Shown here: positions 1 to 10,990 of the stretch, piece by piece
How positions within the stretch are numbered: position 1 is the stretch's first letter
How the letters are laid out: the number at the start of each line of letters is the position of its first letter
Source: a virus
Length of the DNA stretch: 22,586 nt
Direction: 5' to 3' (one strand)
IMG/VR virus record: IMGVR_UViG_3300045997_000053
Location: 1-22,586 of that record
The notes under the pieces: generated by a model
The model's input: only the letters and a program-made list of their open reading frames with translations
What the model was told of the DNA's origin: nothing
Databases searched by the model: none
Program-made: the position numbers and the translations under genes

Positions 1-1817
1 CACACTGAATACTCTGTGCCGGATGTGTTAGACGCCCCTATCAGAAAATTGTAGGCAGGCCCGGACAGCATCAGGTTCTCGCAGCGGCGAGGGATAACTA
101 GTGTCACCTCAAACGCATCTGTCGCCAACGTCGCAGGTGTATACAAATACATTCTGCGGGCCATCTGGTTACCAGAGTCAATCCAGTCCAGGGCACCGTT
201 AACAATCTGCACACTACCCGCACCGATAGTCGATATCGGTGTGAACACAGACGGAATCGCTGTGCCGTTAGCGTAGTCATCGAACTTCACCTTCGCCAAC
301 ACGCCACCCGGCGTCACTTGCTGCGACAACTTCGCTTCCAAGTCAGCGATAGACCCATTCGCCTGGGTGATACCAGCGAGCAGCCCGTTCAAAACTTCCT
401 TGATTGACGGGAGGGTGATGTCCTCACCTGGCTTGATGATGTTCGTCGCACCTTGGTGGATGAACTTGACAATATCGCCCAGGTTCTCGGGCAAATCCTC
501 AATGAACTTTTGTGGGATTGTAGTCCCACGCTTTGTTAGTGTACCGTCATCGAACCTCACCCGGCCCGTAGGTCCGGGTGCTACACGTAGCTGAAGCCGA
601 ACCCTTGACACCCCGGTGCCTACTGTGTAGGAACCTGCCAGGTTCTCAGACCAGTCGGTGCTGTTAGCACCGGCACGTTCACTGTTCTTAATCGGCACCA
701 CCGACACCAAGTCGGTGGTGGGGTCAGGCCCCCTGAACAACACCAGATCAATTCCGATCTTGGTGTGGTCACCGACCAGATTCTCCCGCTGGGTGTAGAT
801 GTCCATGTCAAGGACATTACCTTCGGTAACAAAAATCTCATTTGACCACAATGTTCTCGGAGTGGTGCCGTCCAGGTCTGTGTACACGCACCCTGGTGTG
901 GTACGGCCGGCGACTGTGTCGTAGAACCACAGCCCTTTGCCGTCGATAGACACCGGCCCCTCAAACCGTGGGGCTTCCAGCAAGTTGACCGGAGGGCCAC
1001 CCAAGGTGGAGAGGGGCACCAACTGTAAGCGTGCGGGGTCTATCTGCCCGAACATCGACCGGGAGATAACTTGCTGAATCAGTGTGCGAAGCTCAGGGAT
1101 TGTGCCTTGCCCTTGCCCGCCGAACACCTGGAACAGCAGATTGAATACGTCTTGCGCCTTCTCGGCGGCAGCCTGCGCCTGGTCGATAGCCCCATCAACC
1201 TGGGTTGTTATCCCTGACAGCAGCAGGCCCAAGCCTGCTGCGGTAGCCTCACCCACACCACCCAGCGAGGAAAACAACTCATCCAGCAGGTTTTGGACAG
1301 CTTCGCCAGCATCCAACCCCTGCAAAAAGGCGATAACATCGTCCAGAGTGGCGTCAGTCTTCCCGGCCACCCGGTCAAGGAACTCTTGCCACTCCGCTGG
1401 GTCCAGAACCCCAGACATCCAATTCTGAAGCTCCGCCATCACCTCGACAAGCGTCTTCCCAGGCGTGAACACCCCAGTCAACACTTGCCACAACTGGTCA
1501 AGGAACGCCTGAAAATCCAGGGCCTTCATCCAGATCGGCGAATCTGTCAACGCATTCAAAATCTGGTCAACGGCACCCTCAACCGTATCCCACACCCCAC
1601 CCACCACAGGCGGTAGCAGTTCGCGGAACGTTTGCAACGCCTCAAGCGGCATCGTCAACAGATACTCGCGGAGGATGTCGATCGCCGTGGCGATCGTAGG
1701 CGACGGCACCCTCGTCAACGAACGGATCAGGTCTTCAGTGAAATCCTGGCCGTAGTGCCAGCCGCCGCCACCGATCTGGTAGGCCCCAGCCTCAATCGGT
1801 TGATTCGGTGTCGTCAT
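1..1817 (-). CDS. Minor tail protein, probable receptor/host-surface binding (partial, runs off left edge)
   Basis: An open frame starts with ATG at 1817 and has no stop down to the window edge, giving 605 codons; the C-terminus is missing. The start has a strong Shine-Dalgarno (AGGAGG, 9 nt upstream) and overlaps the end of the preceding membrane-protein gene by 26 bases. The N-terminus (MTTPNQPIEAGAYQIGGGGW) and the following helical stretch resemble the large minor tail proteins that end the tail operon of L5-like phages. The middle is helical (about residues 20-250). After it come beta-rich segments, one containing SIDGKGLWFYDT and a later one starting KVKFDDYANG, that look like carbohydrate-binding or lectin-like sandwich domains. 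From position and domain style I infer a tail-tip protein contacting the host envelope; the exact ligand is unknown. Confidence 0.85.
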   Translation of the reverse strand, partial: MTTPNQPIEAGAYQIGGGGWHYGQDFTEDLIRSLTRVPSPTIATAIDILREYLLTMPLEALQTFRELLPPVVGGVWDTVEGAVDQILNALTDSPIWMKALDFQAFLDQLWQVLTGVFTPGKTLVEVMAELQNWMSGVLDPAEWQEFLDRVAGKTDATLDDVIAFLQGLDAGEAVQNLLDELFSSLGGVGEATAAGLGLLLSGITTQVDGAIDQAQAAAEKAQDVFNLLFQVFGGQGQGTIPELRTLIQQVISRSMFGQIDPARLQLVPLSTLGGPPVNLLEAPRFEGPVSIDGKGLWFYDTVAGRTTPGCVYTDLDGTTPRTLWSNEIFVTEGNVLDMDIYTQRENLVGDHTKIGIDLVLFRGPDPTTDLVSVVPIKNSERAGANSTDWSENLAGSYTVGTGVSRVRLQLRVAPGPTGRVRFDDGTLTKRGTTIPQKFIEDLPENLGDIVKFIHQGATNIIKPGEDITLPSIKEVLNGLLAGITQANGSIADLEAKLSQQVTPGGVLAKVKFDDYANGTAIPSVFTPISTIGAGSVQIVNGALDWIDSGNQMARRMYLYTPATLATDAFEVTLVIPRRCENLMLSGPAYNFLIGASNTSGTEYSV

Positions 1818-2512: not shown

Positions 2513-4297
2513 CTATAGTATGCCGAGCTCGCCGGCCATCGCATTGAAGTCCCGAATCCACTCCAACGCCTTGAACGCAGGATCAGCAGGCTCAGGCATA
2601 CCGACCTCAATGTTCCAACCAGATGGGCCGTCTTTGCCCCACTTGTATCCGACTTTCTTCACCCGCTCCACAAACACCGTGAAGGGGATCGGGAAGCCAG
2701 GAACAGTGGTGCCAGTACGGTTACCGACCCAGAAGTGCCCATGTCCACGCTCACCCACCAGGTACGGTGTGGCGTCGGACACTTCGATCTTGTGGACGGT
2801 CCTCGCCCTGGTGGCGAATATCCTGGCCCTGGTGGCGGCGAACGCCGACAGCGTGAACGCCTTCTCGAAATCCACCTTCGCTTCATACAAGTGGAACTCG
2901 CCCAAGCCTGTAAACTGGTCTTCCAGGCCGGCGATCGGGATGTTCATCCCCGCCGCCCGCAACGTCGGCCACTCTTGGAACGCCCCGAACACATTCTCGT
3001 ACAGCGGCTTGGCGACAGCATCAATCATTCCGCCTAGAGGCGGCAAGTCGATAGCACCACCAACGGCACCAAGAGCAGCGAGTTGGCTGTTGATGAACGA
3101 GGTGAGGATATCGCCGCCTATATTGATGGCCGCTGAAATTCCCTCATTAATTCCGGGGGCCGACTGGCCCCCACCAACAAAGCTGGTGTCGGTGGCCTCA
3201 AAATACTGGAACTCAGACGTTTTGATACCAGTATACGGCCCATCCTCAAACACCACATGCGGGGCCTGAGGCCGGGTGCCCAGGAAGCCTGGATTCCAAT
3301 ACTCGCCAGGGAACGTCGGATCACCAGTGAACACATCAATGCCTTCAGTGGTGCCGTCAGCAGCGATATTCACTACCGCCCTGGCGAACCCTGTCAGCAG
3401 CGAACCGCCGAAAGCGGTCTCGCTACCCCACCCACTGTTGTCCTCAATATCCCACACCAAACACCCATGCCTGATCGGAATCATCCTGGCAAGGTCTTCT
3501 AACGTGTCAATATTCAGTTCGCCACGCAACTCGGCGAACGGATGCTCATCCTCACCCTTCAGATACCTGCGGCACGTCAACGTCAACTGGGAATCTTCCA
3601 GAATCTTCCGGGCGGTATCGAAGAACGATTTGAACCGTGACCACACAATCACCGTGGTCGAATTGTCCCCCAAGAATGGGAACGGTTTCACAATCTGCCG
3701 CCAAAAGCCGGGGTTGAATGACAACCCCATCCACTCAGTCGGGTCTAGCGGATCATCCGGTAATGTCCACAGCGACGTTTCCAAACGGAGCAGATTCACA
3801 AACAGCGTGACCAGCAGGCACCACTTTGCAGGCCCGAATATCACCCAGGCTTTCGGGAATTGTACCTCTGGCCTGAGGAACGGATTGCACCACACCAGGA
3901 TGTGTTTGCAATGTTCGAAGTCATTCTTGAATGTGATTTCCAAGAATGTGTCGCCAAGTTTGTCACGCACAACCCGGTAGTTGTCCATGAACCCTGACCA
4001 GCGGGTGCCCTGCTTCTCGAACGTGACATGCACATTCCGTTTCTGCCGGCCACGATGATTCATCACCCACTTCGACAAATAGTGGTCTAATGACAGTTGG
4101 AGGACAGCCATCCCGGTGTCGTTCTCGACGTGTTCGAACTCGCCGCCACGCTCACCAGCAACCTCGCCGCGCAACACCCAGTCGCCGTCCCACATGCGGG
4201 TAGTCGGCGGCTTCAAACGGCCAGCATCAAGCCTCGCCCTACGTGCCTTCACAAACTCCCAGCACCGCTGGTGATCTGCAAGTGTGGTCAGACTCAC
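2513..4297 (-). CDS. Minor tail protein, hub/baseplate-like
   Basis: A 594-aa protein starting with GTG at 4297, overlapping the stop of the preceding gene (GTGA). The N-terminal third (residues 1-150: WDGDWVLRGEVAGE, YLSKWVMNHRGR, FTFKND-like strands) has the look of the phage tail hub proteins encoded after the distal tail protein in siphoviruses. The middle (about 165-330) has several Trp-rich segments. A Gly/Ala-rich segment around 390-440 (INIGGDILTSFINSQLAALG) could be amphipathic or membrane-interacting. The C-terminus contains TPYLVGERGHGHFWVGNRTG. L5-like phages have a minor tail protein of nearly this length in this position. It probably forms the central tail-tip hub below the distal tail ring. 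No peptidase motif was recognised. Confidence 0.85.
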   Translation of the reverse strand: MSLTTLADHQRCWEFVKARRARLDAGRLKPPTTRMWDGDWVLRGEVAGERGGEFEHVENDTGMAVLQLSLDHYLSKWVMNHRGRQKRNVHVTFEKQGTRWSGFMDNYRVVRDKLGDTFLEITFKNDFEHCKHILVWCNPFLRPEVQFPKAWVIFGPAKWCLLVTLFVNLLRLETSLWTLPDDPLDPTEWMGLSFNPGFWRQIVKPFPFLGDNSTTVIVWSRFKSFFDTARKILEDSQLTLTCRRYLKGEDEHPFAELRGELNIDTLEDLARMIPIRHGCLVWDIEDNSGWGSETAFGGSLLTGFARAVVNIAADGTTEGIDVFTGDPTFPGEYWNPGFLGTRPQAPHVVFEDGPYTGIKTSEFQYFEATDTSFVGGGQSAPGINEGISAAINIGGDILTSFINSQLAALGAVGGAIDLPPLGGMIDAVAKPLYENVFGAFQEWPTLRAAGMNIPIAGLEDQFTGLGEFHLYEAKVDFEKAFTLSAFAATRARIFATRARTVHKIEVSDATPYLVGERGHGHFWVGNRTGTTVPGFPIPFTVFVERVKKVGYKWGKDGPSGWNIEVGMPEPADPAFKALEWIRDFNAMAGELGIL

Positions 4298-4509
4298 TGC
4301 GGCCTCCCGAACCCGAATCGTCCTTCATCCCACGGCTCATACCGTTGGTCAACAAACTCCTGCGCTAGGGTGAAGTTGTGGGCAGACCCACCAAGATGAC
4401 TTGGTGTTTCCGACGAGTCAGACTCGTCGGATTCGACAACCTCATACTCTGTTCGGGTAACAACCAGAATAGGCAATTTCCCGAACAACAACAACACCCA
4501 ATGCGTCAT
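4294..4509 (-). CDS. Small protein of unknown function between distal tail and hub genes
   Basis: A 71-aa protein. The ATG at 4509 overlaps the TAA of the distal tail gene (TAATG), and its own TGA overlaps the GTG of the next gene, so it is embedded by translational coupling on both sides. An in-frame GTG nine codons earlier lies inside the distal tail gene and is less likely. The first 18 residues are hydrophobic (MTHWVLLLFGKLPILVV), followed by an acidic Ser/Glu-rich stretch (EVVESDESDSSE) and an aromatic C-terminus (RYEPWDEGRFGFGRPQ). The N-terminus could be a signal anchor or a beta strand pair. I do not recognise a family; a small tail-tip or accessory role is inference. Confidence 0.7.
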   Translation of the reverse strand: MTHWVLLLFGKLPILVVTRTEYEVVESDESDSSETPSHLGGSAHNFTLAQEFVDQRYEPWDEGRFGFGRPQ

Positions 4510-6461
4510 TACTCCAACCCCCACGGGCGGGACCAAGGCCGGGGCAGCCGCAATGTCACCATCTGACCAGGCGCAGCCCCGGACACGGTGATGTGAAAGT
4601 CTTTCGCCTCAGTGTACGGCGGGATAGGATGGCGGAACCGGACACCGTTCATCCTAGCCCACAACTGCGACTCCGACTCCGACACCACCTGCTCCACCCT
4701 AGGGTCGGTGTCCACGATCGCATTCTCCGCAGGATACGTCTTCGACTCGGTGGTTTCCACCACCCGCCCGGACGGTGTCCCACCCGACAACCCACTAGTA
4801 TCAATAGTCAGGTCAGCTAACTGCTGACCTTCCAGGTTACCTTTGAAGGTGACGATGTACGGTCTGGACCCTTCGGTGACCGTGGCGACCACCACACCAG
4901 GCTCATTGCCGCCAGTGAGGTGGCTGTTCGGCTGCATCATGGGCATATTGATGCCAGCCAGCTTACCTTGGAATGTCACCTCATACAGGCGACCGCCCTC
5001 AGTCTCCGACTTCACCTCAACCGCGCACCCGACACCGCCAGTCAACTGCGAAGCGTCCCCGGTGATCGGCTGCAAGTTGACGCCAGCGAACTTCCCACCA
5101 AACCGCACCATATACGGCGACCACGGGGAGAAAATGTCCTTCGTCACCGCCACATCAAGAATGTCAATGTTCGACAGCCCGATCAGGGCTGTGTACACCT
5201 GCACCGCTGACGCCCTGGCAGGGATCGGCTGGGTGGTCTGCCCATCAAACGTCAACGTGAACGTGCCACCAGTAGGCTCACCAGTGACCTGAACCTCTTG
5301 CACCTCATTGGTGGAGGTGGCCCGCACCGACACATCCCGGTAATCCACATTCGGCAACTGGGCCAAACGTTCCGCCAACTCATACGCCGACGCATTCCAC
5401 AAAATGCCTGGTGTGACGTGGCCGTCCACATTCAAGGTGAATGATCCGCCAGTCGCCCCGCCAACCAGCTTCACTGTCTGCACCTCGTTGGTACGAGGTG
5501 CCCTATCCACAGACACATCATCGTAGGCGATACCAGCCAACGCCTCCAAAGCGGACTTCACTTGGGCCGTCGATGCGTCGAACGGAACACCCGCAGTAGT
5601 CTCACTACCGTATGACAGCGTGAACGTACCAGCCGTGGGCCGGCCGTCAATATACACCTTCCGGACGCCACGCTGACGCAACCCACCAATCAGAGCAGGC
5701 AACCTGACACGGCGGTCAGCATACTCCGGATCAGTAAACGAATAGTCCGGTAATGTCCAGATAGTGGCCTTCGACTTCGGGGCACCCAGCCACGGAATAC
5801 CAGGAATATACGGCTCTGCTGGCTTCTCAGTAGAACCAGGAACCGTCCACACAGGCCAGATTGTCTGGTCAGTCGGGTTGACGCCACCATCAGTGGCGTC
5901 GATCGAAATCACCAAATCCTCTGTGGGGAGCTCAGGTTGCGGCCAAGGCCACGGCAAATTGTTTGGATTGAACCGGGTGTCAGTCTGCGTCACCGCCGAG
6001 AACACCACATCGTCCTCATACCAGAACGGGTCTTGGGCGACCGCAATCACCCCAGCCTCATGCAGGGTCTTCGTTTCCGGATCGACATCTAGTGAAATGT
6101 CCATCGCCTCACCCAGGCGAAGCTTCAAATATCGGACACCCGAATCGGTGGTCACAATCAGGCGGCAATCCCTGTCGAATGCCCACGCCTTCTTCCACGC
6201 CGCATCCCGCGACATCCACCGATTACCGTCACCCTCATCGTTGAGGATCATCACCTTGAACACAATGTCGCGGCGCATGATGCGGTGAGTGAGATACCTG
6301 GCACCAGGATAGTTACCAGGTTCCTCATACACTGTTTTCACAGGCGGATCATACAACCCGGTCACACCCGTAGCCAGCCACACCCCTTTGTCGCCGGCCC
6401 CGTCCCCGGCGAGAACAAACCGTTCGCCGTTGACGCCTTCGAGTTCCACCTTGGTTTGCAT
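4509..6461 (-). CDS. Distal tail (Dit-like) minor tail protein with AAABBB repeat insertion
   Basis: A 650-aa protein starting at ATG 6461, three bases after the tape measure stop, with GGAAGG upstream. Residues 1-150 resemble the N-terminal ring domain of siphovirus distal tail proteins, including the DPETKTLHEAGVIAVAQDPFWYED region. Residues 577-650 (YPAENAIVDTDPRVE, QLWARMNGVRFRHPIPPYT) are the conserved C-terminal portion typical of L5-like homologues. Between them, residues 266-574 hold six repeat units: three of about 60 residues with a GG(T/S)FTL-type core, then three of about 42 residues with a TFxGxLxG-type core and LTGG-like ends. The protein should form the ring joining tail tube and tip. 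The repeats probably project outward and may bind host glycans; that role is inferred. Confidence 0.87.
   Translation of the reverse strand: MQTKVELEGVNGERFVLAGDGAGDKGVWLATGVTGLYDPPVKTVYEEPGNYPGARYLTHRIMRRDIVFKVMILNDEGDGNRWMSRDAAWKKAWAFDRDCRLIVTTDSGVRYLKLRLGEAMDISLDVDPETKTLHEAGVIAVAQDPFWYEDDVVFSAVTQTDTRFNPNNLPWPWPQPELPTEDLVISIDATDGGVNPTDQTIWPVWTVPGSTEKPAEPYIPGIPWLGAPKSKATIWTLPDYSFTDPEYADRRVRLPALIGGLRQRGVRKVYIDGRPTAGTFTLSYGSETTAGVPFDASTAQVKSALEALAGIAYDDVSVDRAPRTNEVQTVKLVGGATGGSFTLNVDGHVTPGILWNASAYELAERLAQLPNVDYRDVSVRATSTNEVQEVQVTGEPTGGTFTLTFDGQTTQPIPARASAVQVYTALIGLSNIDILDVAVTKDIFSPWSPYMVRFGGKFAGVNLQPITGDASQLTGGVGCAVEVKSETEGGRLYEVTFQGKLAGINMPMMQPNSHLTGGNEPGVVVATVTEGSRPYIVTFKGNLEGQQLADLTIDTSGLSGGTPSGRVVETTESKTYPAENAIVDTDPRVEQVVSESESQLWARMNGVRFRHPIPPYTEAKDFHITVSGAAPGQMVTLRLPRPWSRPWGLE
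4740..5666 (-). repeat. Six-unit protein repeat (A-A-A-B-B-B) inside the distal tail gene
   Basis: Translated repeats within the distal tail protein. A units begin at residues 266, 327 and 387 and contain PTAGTFTL, ATGGSFTL and PTGGTFTL, then an Ala-rich helix (VKSALEALAG, LAERLAQLPN, VYTALIGLSN) and a DVSV/DVAV strand. B units begin near residues 450, 493 and 535 with YMVRFGGKFAG, YEVTFQGKLAG and YIVTFKGNLEG, and end near LTGG, LTGG and LSGG. In the common form of this module an A half is followed directly by a B half, as in the major tail protein of this window. Here all A halves precede all B halves. Confidence 0.85.
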
Positions 6462-6463
6462 GG

Positions 6464-9292
6464 TTACCTTCCAGCCAATTGCATAGACTGCCTGTTGTCT
6501 TCAACCCGTTTCACAGCCAGCGCATCATCGACGCTACCCACATTGATTGTGGTGCCGCCACCCATGCCGCCAGTGATCAGCGAGGACAACATTTGCATAC
6601 CGAACCCGATACCCTGCTCCAATCCTTGCGAGATGGCACCTTGCCCGCCGATCCCCAGATCGCCAGCGAACTGCTTGTACACACCCATGCCGATATCCTT
6701 ACCAGCAGACAACAAACTGTCCAGGGTGTTACCAACAATATCGTCAGTCTTCTGAGTTTGGTTACCGTATTCTTTCGAATACCCAAGCTGTTCCTTCTGG
6801 AGAGAAAGAATGTCCTTGATGTTCTGAAGTTCCTTCATCTGGCCGCGAAGGTTCTCTTTCTGCGCCTTGTCTTCTTTCGGCACAGCATCCAACTCAACCT
6901 TCAACGACTTCTTCTGCAACTCCAGCGCAGCCATTGTCTCTTTGAGTTGGTCCTTGAAGTCCGGCATCTCAATGCCGCCCTTCATGGCTTCACTGATAGC
7001 CTCAGCCAAGGCAGTAGCACGGTCGATGACCGACTGCTTACCTTCATCCAAGCCGTTGACGAAACCTTGGGTGACGTTCAAGCCGATATCTTTGAACACC
7101 CCGGAAGGTGATTGGATGTCCAGCTTGACGGCGGCAGCCGCTGTGACGGCAGCGGCCAGGGATTGGGCGGCAGCGACAGCTTGACCGATACTGGCGGTGA
7201 TACCAGCAGCCATACCGGCACCGACCTGGGCACCCGCCGCCTGAGAGGCGGCGAACAACTGGGCACCGATCGCGCCGATAGCAGCCGGGAGGGTTTGGAT
7301 AGCTGCGATAGCCTGCTGAACCCCAGCCTGCACGGCAGCCACCATACCTTGCATGCCTGTGGTAGCGGCCTGCTGGACACCTTGGAAGGTGGCGTTCACA
7401 ATGTTGATGACACCAGACATACCAACCGACATGGCGGACGATATCTGTGAGCCGATACTGCTCACCGCCGCGCCGATACCCGACAATTGGGTGGTGATGA
7501 ATGTCGGTATCTCAGCCCACGCCGCCTTGAAGGTGGAGAAGTCCGGGGCCGGCAGCGACTCGCCAGACGTGGCCTGCGACAGCGAACCACGCACCTGCTG
7601 CGTCACAGAGTCGATGAACGTTTGGTATTCGGTGACCTTCGCCTCGGCTTGCGCCGTGTCCGGAGGGGCCACAACCGGCTTGATGTCCTCGACAGCCGTC
7701 GCTATCGCCTCGGCACCAGTAGTGATAGACTGCTGCACCGGGGCCAGCGGCGGTGCCGCCGCAGCGGCACCAGTGATACCAGCCGTCAACGACTCAATGA
7801 ACGCCCCACCAGCCTCAGACGCAGGCTGCGTCAACGCCGACTTGTCGAACCCTGAGAAGATCGTGGAAGTCAAGTCAGGGGCGGCACCCGCCCCGCCCGT
7901 CATAGCCCCCTGCAACGAGGAAATGAACTGCTGCCCCATCTCGGTGCCAGCATTCATCACCACATCATGCTGGTCAACGCCGAACATGTTAGCGAGGCTT
8001 TCCCGCATAGACCGCTTCGCGGCCCCCTCGTCAATGATTTCCTTACCACCACCGAACATGGTTTCACCGGTAAGGAACTTCTCCAAAGGAGAACCCTTGA
8101 ACACATTCTTGAAATCGTCAGCAATAGCTGACGGGTCCAACCTAGGCAGCATATTGTCGAACAAATCGACAAAGTTCGACAACCCATTCGAAATGTTTTG
8201 AATATCCCGCAACGTGTCGGCAACCGACTTCAACCCGTCATTGAACGAATTGATGCCCTGCGGATTGTTGAAAAACTCAATACCCTTCTTGCCGATATCA
8301 CCAATCAGATCGGCAACAATCTTCAGGGAACCGCCAAGACCATCAAATGCACGGCCCAGATCACCGTTCTCGGTGATCTTCTGAACCCACTCCCCGAACC
8401 CCTTACCCGCTTTGTTGATCCAGTCAGTGATCGCAGGCAATTTCAAAGAGAACTGTTCAGCTAGGCCGATCAGGCCGTCAGTGAACCCGGTCATACCAGG
8501 GCGCATACTCGACAGTGCCGCACCGATATTACGGATCGTCGCTTCGATCTTCGCCATGCCGGGGGCTGAGGTGACAGCATCCACCACCCCGGACGCCATG
8601 TTCGCCAAACCCTTGGTGACAGTCGGCAACGACGCCTGAAGCATAGGGAACACTTTGCCCAGGCGGTCGAACAGCGGGGTGAACTGGTCCTTGACAGCCC
8701 CAGACATAGAGGTTTTCAGATCGGCGAATGGCTGCGCCAGTGACTTCGCGGCCTCTTTCAAGCCGTCCATACCCAATGTGAGGGCGGCGATCGGGGTCGC
8801 TACCGTAGCGATCAAACCGGGAATAGATGCCAGAGCGGCAGAAATCAAACCTAGCAGCGGGCCAGCCACGGCGGTGATGCCGGCCACAATAGCCACAGCA
8901 CCCGCCGCATTGATACCGGTACCGAAACTGGGCTTGAAGTTGCTGATATCCTTACCGCCAGGAAGCAAAGCGGCAATGTCACGCTTCGTCTTCTCAGCAG
9001 CCTGCTGATCAACCTCAGTGCCGACCTTCACTTTCTCCTTAGAGAAAGTGCCCTTCACCCAATCCTTGAACCGTTGGACACCAGTCCGATCAACATCCAC
9101 CTCAATCGTGGCGGTACGATCATCCGCCACAGCGTCAATCTCCGCCGCAGCAGCGGCGGTGCCCTTCGCATTGACCTCAATATCGGCGTCACCGATACTC
9201 TCAAGGACCGCCTTCACCTTCTGACGGAACCCAGTCATGTCCGGAACGACCTTGATGGAAATCCGACCGACTTCAGTGCCCATACCGGCCAT
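6464..9292 (-). CDS. Tape measure protein
   Basis: A 942-aa protein, the longest in the window, directly after the frameshifted chaperone pair, which is where siphoviruses encode the tape measure. ATG 9292 follows AGGTGG. The N-terminus (RISIKVVPDMTGFRQKVKAVL) is typical of the family. A hydrophobic segment at about 127-174 (AAGAVAIVAGITAVAGPLLG) is likely the membrane-active part released on DNA entry. A long Ala/Gly/Gln-rich helical core follows, then a charged coiled coil near 770-850 (ELQKKSLKVELDAVPKEDK) and a Gly-rich end. It sets tail length and occupies the tube lumen. At the usual ratio of about 1.5 angstrom per residue it predicts a tail near 140 nm. No lytic transglycosylase or peptidase domain was seen. 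Confidence 0.96.
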   Translation of the reverse strand: MAGMGTEVGRISIKVVPDMTGFRQKVKAVLESIGDADIEVNAKGTAAAAAEIDAVADDRTATIEVDVDRTGVQRFKDWVKGTFSKEKVKVGTEVDQQAAEKTKRDIAALLPGGKDISNFKPSFGTGINAAGAVAIVAGITAVAGPLLGLISAALASIPGLIATVATPIAALTLGMDGLKEAAKSLAQPFADLKTSMSGAVKDQFTPLFDRLGKVFPMLQASLPTVTKGLANMASGVVDAVTSAPGMAKIEATIRNIGAALSSMRPGMTGFTDGLIGLAEQFSLKLPAITDWINKAGKGFGEWVQKITENGDLGRAFDGLGGSLKIVADLIGDIGKKGIEFFNNPQGINSFNDGLKSVADTLRDIQNISNGLSNFVDLFDNMLPRLDPSAIADDFKNVFKGSPLEKFLTGETMFGGGKEIIDEGAAKRSMRESLANMFGVDQHDVVMNAGTEMGQQFISSLQGAMTGGAGAAPDLTSTIFSGFDKSALTQPASEAGGAFIESLTAGITGAAAAAPPLAPVQQSITTGAEAIATAVEDIKPVVAPPDTAQAEAKVTEYQTFIDSVTQQVRGSLSQATSGESLPAPDFSTFKAAWAEIPTFITTQLSGIGAAVSSIGSQISSAMSVGMSGVINIVNATFQGVQQAATTGMQGMVAAVQAGVQQAIAAIQTLPAAIGAIGAQLFAASQAAGAQVGAGMAAGITASIGQAVAAAQSLAAAVTAAAAVKLDIQSPSGVFKDIGLNVTQGFVNGLDEGKQSVIDRATALAEAISEAMKGGIEMPDFKDQLKETMAALELQKKSLKVELDAVPKEDKAQKENLRGQMKELQNIKDILSLQKEQLGYSKEYGNQTQKTDDIVGNTLDSLLSAGKDIGMGVYKQFAGDLGIGGQGAISQGLEQGIGFGMQMLSSLITGGMGGGTTINVGSVDDALAVKRVEDNRQSMQLAGR

Positions 9293-9300
9293 CAGACCAC

Positions 9301-9732
9301 CTACTTCTTTCTCATCATAGACGCCGCCATAGCAGCAAACGAACCAGGCCGCTTAACCTGATCCTCTTTCGGACGGCCATCAGGCAAAGGATACGGGGTT
9401 GGCGGGGCAGGACGCTTCTTCTTCGGGTCCATATTCGCACACAGAAACATGTAGTTCGCCACACGCTGTGCATTCAACTCAGCCACCCGCAGGTAACGGT
9501 CCTCATCCCAGTCGCGGAACTTACGGCCACCGCGCTGCTCCGCGATCGTAGCCGAACCCAACGGCAACCACCCGATATGAATCAACACAAACAGCGGAGA
9601 CACATCACACGTCAAAACGTCCCGCAAATCCAAACCGAAATAGTGCCTCAGGTCAGGGACAAGAGTCTCGCCAAACTCATCAATCAGCTTGGCGAGTTCC
9701 CGGCTTCCCCCGGTTGAGTAGAATCCATCCAC
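9301..9732 (-). CDS. Tail assembly chaperone, frameshift extension (gpG-T type)
   Basis: This open frame is in the -1 frame relative to the upstream chaperone gene and overlaps its 3' end by 49 bases. In lambda-like and L5-like phages the T part is made only by programmed frameshifting. A slip at GGGGGAA (9711-9705) would join residue 106 of the first product to GGA at 9708-9706, giving a 241-aa fusion. The GTG at 9732 has no convincing ribosome site, supporting expression as a fusion. The extension is acidic then basic (LAKLIDEFGETLVPDLRHYFG, then DPKKKRPAPPTPYPLPDG), ending in MMRKK. It should bind the tape measure protein during tail assembly and be absent from the virion. Confidence 0.88.
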   Translation of the reverse strand: MDGFYSTGGSRELAKLIDEFGETLVPDLRHYFGLDLRDVLTCDVSPLFVLIHIGWLPLGSATIAEQRGGRKFRDWDEDRYLRVAELNAQRVANYMFLCANMDPKKKRPAPPTPYPLPDGRPKEDQVKRPGSFAAMAASMMRKK

Positions 9733-10025
9733 GCCTCAAGCACACGCATCGTCAACGCCGCATCGTCACCGATCGCATCCACCAAACGCTGCCCATCGTG
9801 GGACGCTAAGATGATGATCTGCACAGCACAATCCTGCATCACATCGACATCGTTCGTTTCCTGAAGCCGATCCAACTGCTCCATCACAGCGGTGCGCGGA
9901 CCCTTGTCCAAACGCAGCAACGGCTGCAACTCCACAGCAAGCTCATCACCCAGTTCAATCGACACCGGGGCGTACTTCTTCTCAACCTCCTCGCGGAGGG
10001 AATCAAGTGTGAAAATCTTACCCAT
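9684..10025 (-). CDS. Tail assembly chaperone (gpG type)
   Basis: A 113-aa protein between the major tail protein and the tape measure, the fixed position of the gpG chaperone. ATG 10025 (MGKIFTLDSLREEVEKKYAP) follows AAAGG, 8 nt upstream. It is mostly helical and acidic (VELQPLLRLDKGPRTAVMEQL, DDAALTMRVLEAWMDS), which fits the family. Its last seven codons lie downstream of the slippery run and would be replaced in the frameshifted G-T product. The short form should be made in excess and, with G-T, coat the tape measure and recruit tail tube subunits. A hairpin-rich spacer separates it from the highly expressed major tail protein gene upstream. Confidence 0.92.
   Translation of the reverse strand: MGKIFTLDSLREEVEKKYAPVSIELGDELAVELQPLLRLDKGPRTAVMEQLDRLQETNDVDVMQDCAVQIIILASHDGQRLVDAIGDDAALTMRVLEAWMDSTQPGEAGNSPS
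9705..9711 (-). other. Candidate -1 ribosomal frameshift site GGGGGAA
   Basis: Reading the minus strand in the frame of the first chaperone, the codons are CCG GGG GAA. A one-base backward slip re-pairs GGG with GGG and continues as GGA AGC CGG in the T frame. The zero-frame stop comes seven codons after the slip codon. The P-site re-pairing is perfect, but the A-site would change from GAA to GGA, so this is not an ideal X-XXY-YYZ heptamer. Confidence 0.75.
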
Positions 10026-10120: not shown

Positions 10121-10990
10121 CTAGGCGAACAGTTCCTCATTGATCCACTCGAACAAGTTCGCATTCCCATTCTTCAGGAACGTCGCCTTGATCGGCAGCG
10201 AAGCGAAATCATCCACAGGCATCTGGATGGAATCGTCCCGCTTCACCGACGCCTTCGGCGCATAGAACCCAACCCGGCGGTCACCGTCAATGATGATCAC
10301 CAAGAAAGCGTACTCGTTCGTCTTCGACACGTCACCCGACACACCGAACACGCCAGGGGTGCTGGACGCATTCTTGCCGTAGTACAGTTCGAAGTTCTCG
10401 GTGTCGAACTGGTGCAGGAACATCGTCAGGAAGTCGGCAGCCGCATCCGACTGAACCTCCCGCAGCTTAGCATTCTGCCAAGTGCCCTTCACCTCGCTGT
10501 CACCGCCATCGAACCCGAACTCGGGCATGTCGTTGCGGCTGGTGTGGCCGATCTGATCCCAACCGACACCGTCCTGGGTGGCGGTCACCGTCACCGTGGG
10601 CGTGGTACCACCCGTCAGGGTGGGGGTGGCCGTGATCGCATGATCAGAACCCTTCAGGGTACCAACCCAGGACACGGCGAGACCCTTGACAAGGTCTTCA
10701 CCCTGAACCGTCACATTACCGGGGCCGACAGTCGCGAGGGCTTCCAGCGCAGCCTGGATAGCTGCCGCATCGGCATCGTGGGCGAGTGCAGCGGATTCTT
10801 CGGCTTCCACCGTGAGGGTGAAGGTGCCGCCAGTCGGGGAGCCGGTGGTCTTGAGAACCTGGGCCTTGGTGCCGAACGTGAGCGGGTCAAGCGTCTTAAT
10901 CTGGGCCGGCGTCGGACGAGCAGTACCCACTGCCGCCTTGTAAACGTATCCGACCGCCGCAGTCAATACGGCATTGTCATTCTGTGCCAT
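10121..10990 (-). CDS. Major tail (tube) protein with inserted beta module
   Basis: A 289-aa protein starting at ATG 10990 after AAGGAG. The N-terminus (MAQNDNAVLTAAVGYVYKAA) and the block after residue 142 (GWDQIGHTSRNDMPEFGFDG) match the major tail subunit of L5-like phages, as does the end (INEELFA). Homologues of this type are usually about 200 residues. The extra length is an insertion at about residues 42-141 with GSPTGGTFTLTVEAEE, an Ala-rich helix (AIQAALEALATVG) and WVGTLKGSDHAI...LTGG. This is one complete A+B module of the kind found in the distal tail protein. The subunit forms the tail tube; the insert should decorate its outer surface in every ring, which is inference. Confidence 0.93.
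   Translation of the reverse strand: MAQNDNAVLTAAVGYVYKAAVGTARPTPAQIKTLDPLTFGTKAQVLKTTGSPTGGTFTLTVEAEESAALAHDADAAAIQAALEALATVGPGNVTVQGEDLVKGLAVSWVGTLKGSDHAITATPTLTGGTTPTVTVTATQDGVGWDQIGHTSRNDMPEFGFDGGDSEVKGTWQNAKLREVQSDAAADFLTMFLHQFDTENFELYYGKNASSTPGVFGVSGDVSKTNEYAFLVIIIDGDRRVGFYAPKASVKRDDSIQMPVDDFASLPIKATFLKNGNANLFEWINEELFA
10568..10867 (-). other. Inserted A+B surface module in the major tail protein
   Basis: About 100 codons that interrupt the otherwise familiar tail-tube sequence between TLDPLTFG and GWDQIGHTS. It has the A-half signature SPTGGTFTL plus Ala-rich helix and the B-half signature WVGTLKG and LTGG. It resembles the units of the distal tail protein but in the uninterrupted A-then-B order. 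Confidence 0.8.

Follow-up and report, generated by a model that had tools for sequence, protein, structure and literature searches.

The distal tail protein (Dit) encoded in the window, by which we mean the whole 22,586-base IMG/VR virus record, is very probably a Dit of the Bxb1 gp23 type whose C-terminal domain is interrupted by a nested stave of three modules, Dit[A1[A2[A3 B1]B2]B3]Dit, and which would be cage-forming by homology (probability of about 0.88). This interpretation is founded on the homology of the protein, the order of its repeat units and their conservation, the predicted nested fold and the constant lengths of the links between units. The protein family and its structure are already known, and the window Dit is a relative of the solved Bxb1 protein. 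The features are located as follows, with the evidence in parentheses.

4509..6461, minus strand: Dit, 650 aa, orthologue of Bxb1 gp23 'Tail tip cage' (phmmer, VIA-align)
5691..6461, minus strand: N-terminal belt domain and first part of the C-terminal domain of Dit, residues 1-257 (alignment with Douge Dit 8zdo_m, phrog_106 match)
5490..5672, minus strand: A1, residues 264-324, first half of the outermost module, predicted to pair with B3 (unit comparison, profile)
5310..5489, minus strand: A2, residues 325-384, first half of the middle module, predicted to pair with B2 (unit comparison, profile)
5127..5309, minus strand: A3, residues 385-445, first half of the innermost module, predicted to pair with B1 (unit comparison, profile)
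4992..5126, minus strand: B1, residues 446-490, second half of the innermost module (comparison, profile, structure, link lengths)
4866..4991, minus strand: B2, residues 491-532, second half of the middle module (comparison, profile, structure)
4743..4865, minus strand: B3, residues 533-573, second half of the outermost module (comparison, profile, structure)
4512..4742, minus strand: remainder of the C-terminal domain of Dit after the insert, residues 574-650 (module-free relatives)
10568..10864, minus strand: single A-B module in the major tail protein, residues 43-141 (Phage_TTP_17 match of the whole protein)

The gene is located between a 942-aa tape measure-like frame (6464-9292) and a hub frame of the Sipho_Gp37 family (2513-4297), the position expected of a siphophage Dit, and in the Bxb1-type relative Sunshine924 the Dit gene likewise comes directly after the tape measure gene. 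Two overlapping frames that precede the tape measure gene on the minus strand (9301-9732 and 9684-10025) show the pattern expected for tail assembly chaperones made by programmed frameshift. Comparison of the window Dit with 9d93_Ma, annotated as 'Tail tip cage, gp23', using phmmer returned an E-value of 7.9e-207 in two stretches over residues 3-650, and VIA-align superposed the full-length model on Bxb1 gp23 with a Z of 28.7 over 618 aa at about 50% identity. Bxb1 gp23 is a full-length homologue that carries A-A-A-B-B-B at the same site of the C-terminal domain, with the same predicted fold. The structure of Bxb1 gp23, the tail tip cage protein, is PDB 9d93 (Freeman et al. 2025, Cell 188:2925, doi 10.1016/j.cell.2025.03.027). 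Phrog_106 (minor tail protein) matches the N-terminal part of the window Dit, and structure matches to known Dits indicate the presence of both a belt domain and a C-terminal galectin-like domain, while Pfam and NCBIfam provided nothing useful for the module block.

A preliminary description of this DNA had placed three A halves followed by three B halves at positions 4740-5666 and had recognized one A-then-B module in the major tail protein. Both observations hold: the six units occupy residues 264-573 of Dit (window 4743-5672), and residues 43-141 of the major tail protein (frame 10121-10990, minus strand) carry the single module. Pairwise local alignments yielded Z scores of 13.9 (A1/A2), 18.1 (A1/A3) and 23.0 (A2/A3) for the A units and of 12.7 (B1/B2), 9.3 (B1/B3) and 8.4 (B2/B3) for the B units, and none of 1000 shuffles reached the score of any A-A or B-B pair. 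No similarity above that of 1000 shuffles was detected in any A-B pair (Z between −0.9 and 1.5). We built a profile of the single module from 11 one-module relatives and ran it on 23 three-module representatives. On the window Dit, the successive matches covered profile positions 3-59, 1-57, 1-107, 68-107 and 65-106. The same pattern is found in the three-module representatives, in which A1 and A2 match as A only, A3-B1 matches from A into B, and B2 and B3 match as B only; the A3/B1 match is shortened or split where a long B1 loop or a duplication (contig L026, see below) interrupts it, and a few representatives miss one B. Because the profile runs from A into B nowhere else, A3-B1 is the sole uninterrupted A-to-B junction. 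The profile scores of A3B1 (65 bits) and A1B3 (61 bits) are close, and the profile therefore designates no ancestral shell.

Structure prediction, proposed earlier as a way to see which A packs with which B, indicated that A1 packs with B3, A2 with B2 and A3 with B1. The AlphaFold2 model of the module block, computed from 22 sequences, reached a mean pLDDT of 90.6 and a pTM of 0.79, and its best structure match was Bxb1 gp23 (9d93_Mc, Z 21.9, 328 aa). The full-length Dit model had a pTM of 0.56, and the orientation of its domains is therefore unsure. We deduced the pairing from the first and last aligned residues together with the aligned length of single domains superposed on the models. In the Bxb1 capsid protein (9d9x_Ha) the module is contiguous (about residues 305-397); it aligned with residues 127-232 of the block model, which correspond to A3+B1 (Z 12.1, 91 aa, 2.1 Å), and also with the full-length model over the span 262..573, which corresponds to A1+B3 (Z 12.2, 91 aa, 2.1 Å). 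Sheath domains of Mu (9khy_a, 98 residues over 3..318) and XM1 (7kh1_A6, 92 residues over 3..320) aligned with A1+B3 of the block model, and a sheath domain of E217 (8fvg_A, 89 residues over 65..276) and FliD (5xlk_A, 91 residues over 64..276) aligned with A2+B2. Since contiguous single domains superpose on A3+B1, A1+B3 and A2+B2, we infer the arrangement A1[A2[A3 B1]B2]B3, and these superpositions on predicted models argue strongly for A1-B3, A2-B2 and A3-B1 pairs in the window Dit. The same pairs gave the highest values in their rows, by small margins, in a mirror-tree analysis using partial correlations of distance matrices from which the phage phylogeny and the other units had been removed (0.33 for A1-B3, 0.38 for A2-B2 and 0.21 for A3-B1). 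The module-free Dit of Douge (8zdo_m) aligned on either side of the block (257 residues, 2.4 Å, full-length model 1..650), which identifies the nest as an insert in the C-terminal domain of Dit.

The order of the units alone would also be compatible with a parallel pairing of A1 with B1, A2 with B2 and A3 with B3 by domain swapping between strands or subunits. The model contradicts such a pairing, and we regard it as extremely improbable, given that A3/B1 is one continuous module both by profile and by structure and that A1+B3 superposes as one domain at 2.1 Å over 91 residues. Only marginally better placed, and still very improbable, is the possibility that the A units and the B units represent two independent small domains, amplified separately and equal in number by chance. 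The lack of sequence similarity between A and B speaks in its favour, and half-unit slippage is conceivable, as the 17-residue duplication within A3 of L026 illustrates for shorter stretches. However, the single module is a compact A+B domain in solved structures (Bxb1 capsid), and a single contiguous domain can be superposed on each of the pairs A1+B3, A2+B2 and A3+B1. This reading, already raised as an alternative in the preliminary description, is contradicted by the predicted fold, in which separate folding of each A and B unit was looked for and not seen. The distribution of the modules among relatives speaks against it as well, since intact Dit frames carry A and B units in counts of 0/0, 1/1 or 3/3, with the split match in L026 as the sole exception.

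These counts derive from separate scans of the A and B profiles over every open frame of 239 sources, which yielded 72 distinct AAABBB frames, 36 AB frames and a single AAAABBB frame (L026); frames cut off at contig ends are prefixes of AAABBB. In L026, an IMG/VR contig, a tandem duplication of 17 residues (TFDGQTTQPIPWNAGPL) inside A3 splits one A match, and it reflects either recent slippage or an assembly error. No ABAB, AAB or AABB order was observed among the intact frames of these 239 sources, nor any intact Dit with two modules or unequal A and B counts; alternating AB order among relatives was thus looked for and not seen. The module site in Dit orthologues always lies between '...PxLIGGLR' and 'PAENxxxDTDPR', and the parts that flank it are directly contiguous in the module-free L014, L015, L016 and L158. 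Module-free Dits are found in Bowtie, KatherineG, Naiad and a prophage of Mycolicibacterium rhodesiae, and one-module Dits in Kimona, Pistachio, BreSam8, Manu, Cindaradix, Arturo and a prophage of M. abscessus. AAABBB Dits are encoded by the window, Sheen, HINdeR, Sunshine924 (Bxb1 type), many IMG/VR contigs and a prophage of Mycolicibacterium houstonense. The search for one-module and two-module versions with insertion at the same junction thus recovered Dits with no module or one module at the same point of the protein, and no two-module Dit among the sources scanned. Searches by tblastn with a synthetic consensus query or with the tail-protein module alone gave no match, perhaps as a result of the BLAST low-complexity filter. 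One reference with a stop codon was excluded from the full-length alignment.

Several other proteins deserve mention. The Dit frame of phage Arturo (L013:301-1641) is broken near its end by comparison with close relatives, and the annotated gene ends early. Gp6 of Mycobacterium phage Acolyte (L242:811-2127), a hypothetical protein whose gene has the small terminase gene on one side and the lysin A gene on the other, matched A at residues 54-115 and 134-190 and B at residues 195-245 in two pieces, with a weak further B match at 338-365; it is possibly a two-level nest in a protein other than Dit. The major tail protein of Microbacterium phage Teamocil (BFVD A0A649VYE1, 335 residues) aligned with the block over 201 columns at 29% identity, longer than one module would give, and may contain extra A or B units.

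We compared the lengths of the links between units in 21 relatives. The A1/A2 link is 16 residues long with no exception, the A2/A3 link is 16 residues long with one exception, and the B1/B2 and B2/B3 links are 17 residues each with no exception, whereas the A3/B1 hairpin (18 to 21 residues) and the first B1 loop (13 to 64 residues) vary. The distal, free end of the stave is where length varies most. In the block model, the last strand of A2 (120-127) almost directly precedes the first strand of A3 (129-136); likewise, B1 ends in a strand (223-230) that leads almost directly into the first strand of B2 (233-240). Given the constant link lengths and the near-continuous strands of the model, each shell appears to be connected to the next by two short strands of constant length. 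A stiff stave requires such links, and the stave of the window Dit is likely to be stiff.

The first B1 loop of L031, L025 and L034 (Bxb1 type) contains a hydrophobic stretch of 29 to 51 residues, with a 15-residue hydropathy of up to 2.0. It lies at the end of the stave that is innermost in the nest and presumably distal. A B1 loop of the Bxb1-type length occurs in 44 of 73 three-module frames. This hydrophobic loop might contact the mycobacterial outer layer. It is present in the Bxb1 type (about 29 residues) but not in the window Dit.

How the nest arose is less clear than its architecture. In unit trees, units group by position (A1 with A1 in 22 of 22 cases, A2 with A2 in 20 of 22) and the deep branches are weak. 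Because the units cluster by position, the triplication appears to be old and its order cannot be read; the trees proposed in the preliminary description thus sorted the units without giving the order of duplication. In the Dit-core tree, one-module proteins lie among three-module ones, with at least five changes in module number and no direction given, which suggests exchange or loss. One scenario, to which we give slightly less than even odds, is that the stave grew by repeated self-insertion at the A/B hairpin into a stiff, extendable rod, and that phages exchange the number of modules (0, 1 or 3) to change the cage. If true, growth by self-insertion would double the covalent links between neighbouring modules. 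The preliminary description had proposed nested insertion, and the pairing in the predicted structure supports the nesting; the twofold insertion history is the simplest account only, given that no two-module Dit was found.

It is rather unlikely, yet worth considering, that the nested fold is real and arose instead by paired tandem duplication of the A and B half-units or by recombinational import of a ready-made cage. This would be consistent with the lack of an AABB Dit in the scan of 239 sources, with the grouping of units by position and with the scattering of one-module proteins among three-module ones through these five or more changes. Separate duplications of A and of B, however, would involve intermediates (AAB or ABB) in which one half has no partner. 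No such state was seen, whereas a single insertion of a whole module leaves every state foldable.

Apart from its insert, the window Dit resembles known Dits. Gp17 of Douge (8zdo) shares the same Dit core (Z 24.6 over 257 aa), as does the Dit of SPP1 (2x8k, Z 12.2 over 234 aa), but both are devoid of the module block; the Dit of p2 matched the full-length model with a Z of 11.8. The capsid and tail tube proteins of Bxb1 share the module fold and are homologous in sequence, and the tail sheaths of the myophages Mu, Milano, E217 and XM1 have the same Ig-like module fold; unlike the window Dit, each of these proteins contains one un-nested module. Nesting itself, which had been expected to be unusual in a tail ring, is common to the Bxb1 type, which has a solved structure (PDB 9d93), and flagellin and RNA polymerase already provide known cases of nested domains. 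Because 171 residues of flagellin FliC D2/D3 (8sug) align over A2-A3-B1-B2, FliC D2/D3 is the nearest structural parallel; flagellin/FliD outer domains in 8erm aligned over the same units (149 aa). In flagellin, D3 (residues 243-353) lies within D2 (PMC10256154). The outer domains of FliC and FliD thus have a similar module fold and a D2[D3]D2 nest of two levels, versus three in the window Dit, but their core protein and function differ, and a Z of about 5 is compatible with either homology or convergence. The helical D0/D1 filament core is absent from the window protein, the remainder of which adopts the Dit fold in the full-length model. As modelled, the window Dit shares its construction with a nested outer domain of flagellin, yet it is no flagellin. 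The Si3 region of the cyanobacterial RNA polymerase beta-prime subunit contains recursive domain-in-domain insertions of up to six levels (PMC13114784); it is likewise nested, in a protein unrelated to Dit.

Our favoured model is therefore the following. The window protein would be a hexamer-ring Dit of the Bxb1 gp23 type, in which a stave of three homologous modules is predicted to interrupt the C-terminal domain. Each module would comprise an A half (strand-strand-helix-strand) and a B half made of strands, and would be placed within the A/B hairpin of the preceding module, having possibly originated by insertion of a module into its own hairpin. Neighbouring modules would be linked by an outward A-to-A strand and a returning B-to-B strand, both of fixed length. 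With two such strands between modules, a stiff rod is expected rather than a flexible string. By homology with Bxb1, six staves would make a cage around the tail tip, and this cage would come into contact with the mycobacterial cell wall. Among papers citing the Bxb1 structure, a passage of PMC13252515 describes three additional CTE-like domains of the Bxb1 Dit that shape a barrel, and a passage of PMC12474359 describes its modules as a cage in the free phage that is flattened upon contact with the mycobacterial wall; PMC13033339 is also cited on function, for a portion concerning the smegmatis surface. The hexamer, the cage and the contact with the wall are attributed to the window Dit on the strength of this homology and may apply to it.

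The window Dit and its relatives provide a clean case of a domain nested within its own homologues, with 0, 1 or 3 copies at one site. Simple repeat counting misreads such proteins, in which A-A-A-B-B-B stands for three whole domains and not for six half-domains. Nested versus tandem domain growth is directly testable here in phages propagated on Mycobacterium smegmatis. For tail biology, the number of modules would represent a design variable of the cage that faces the mycobacterial wall.
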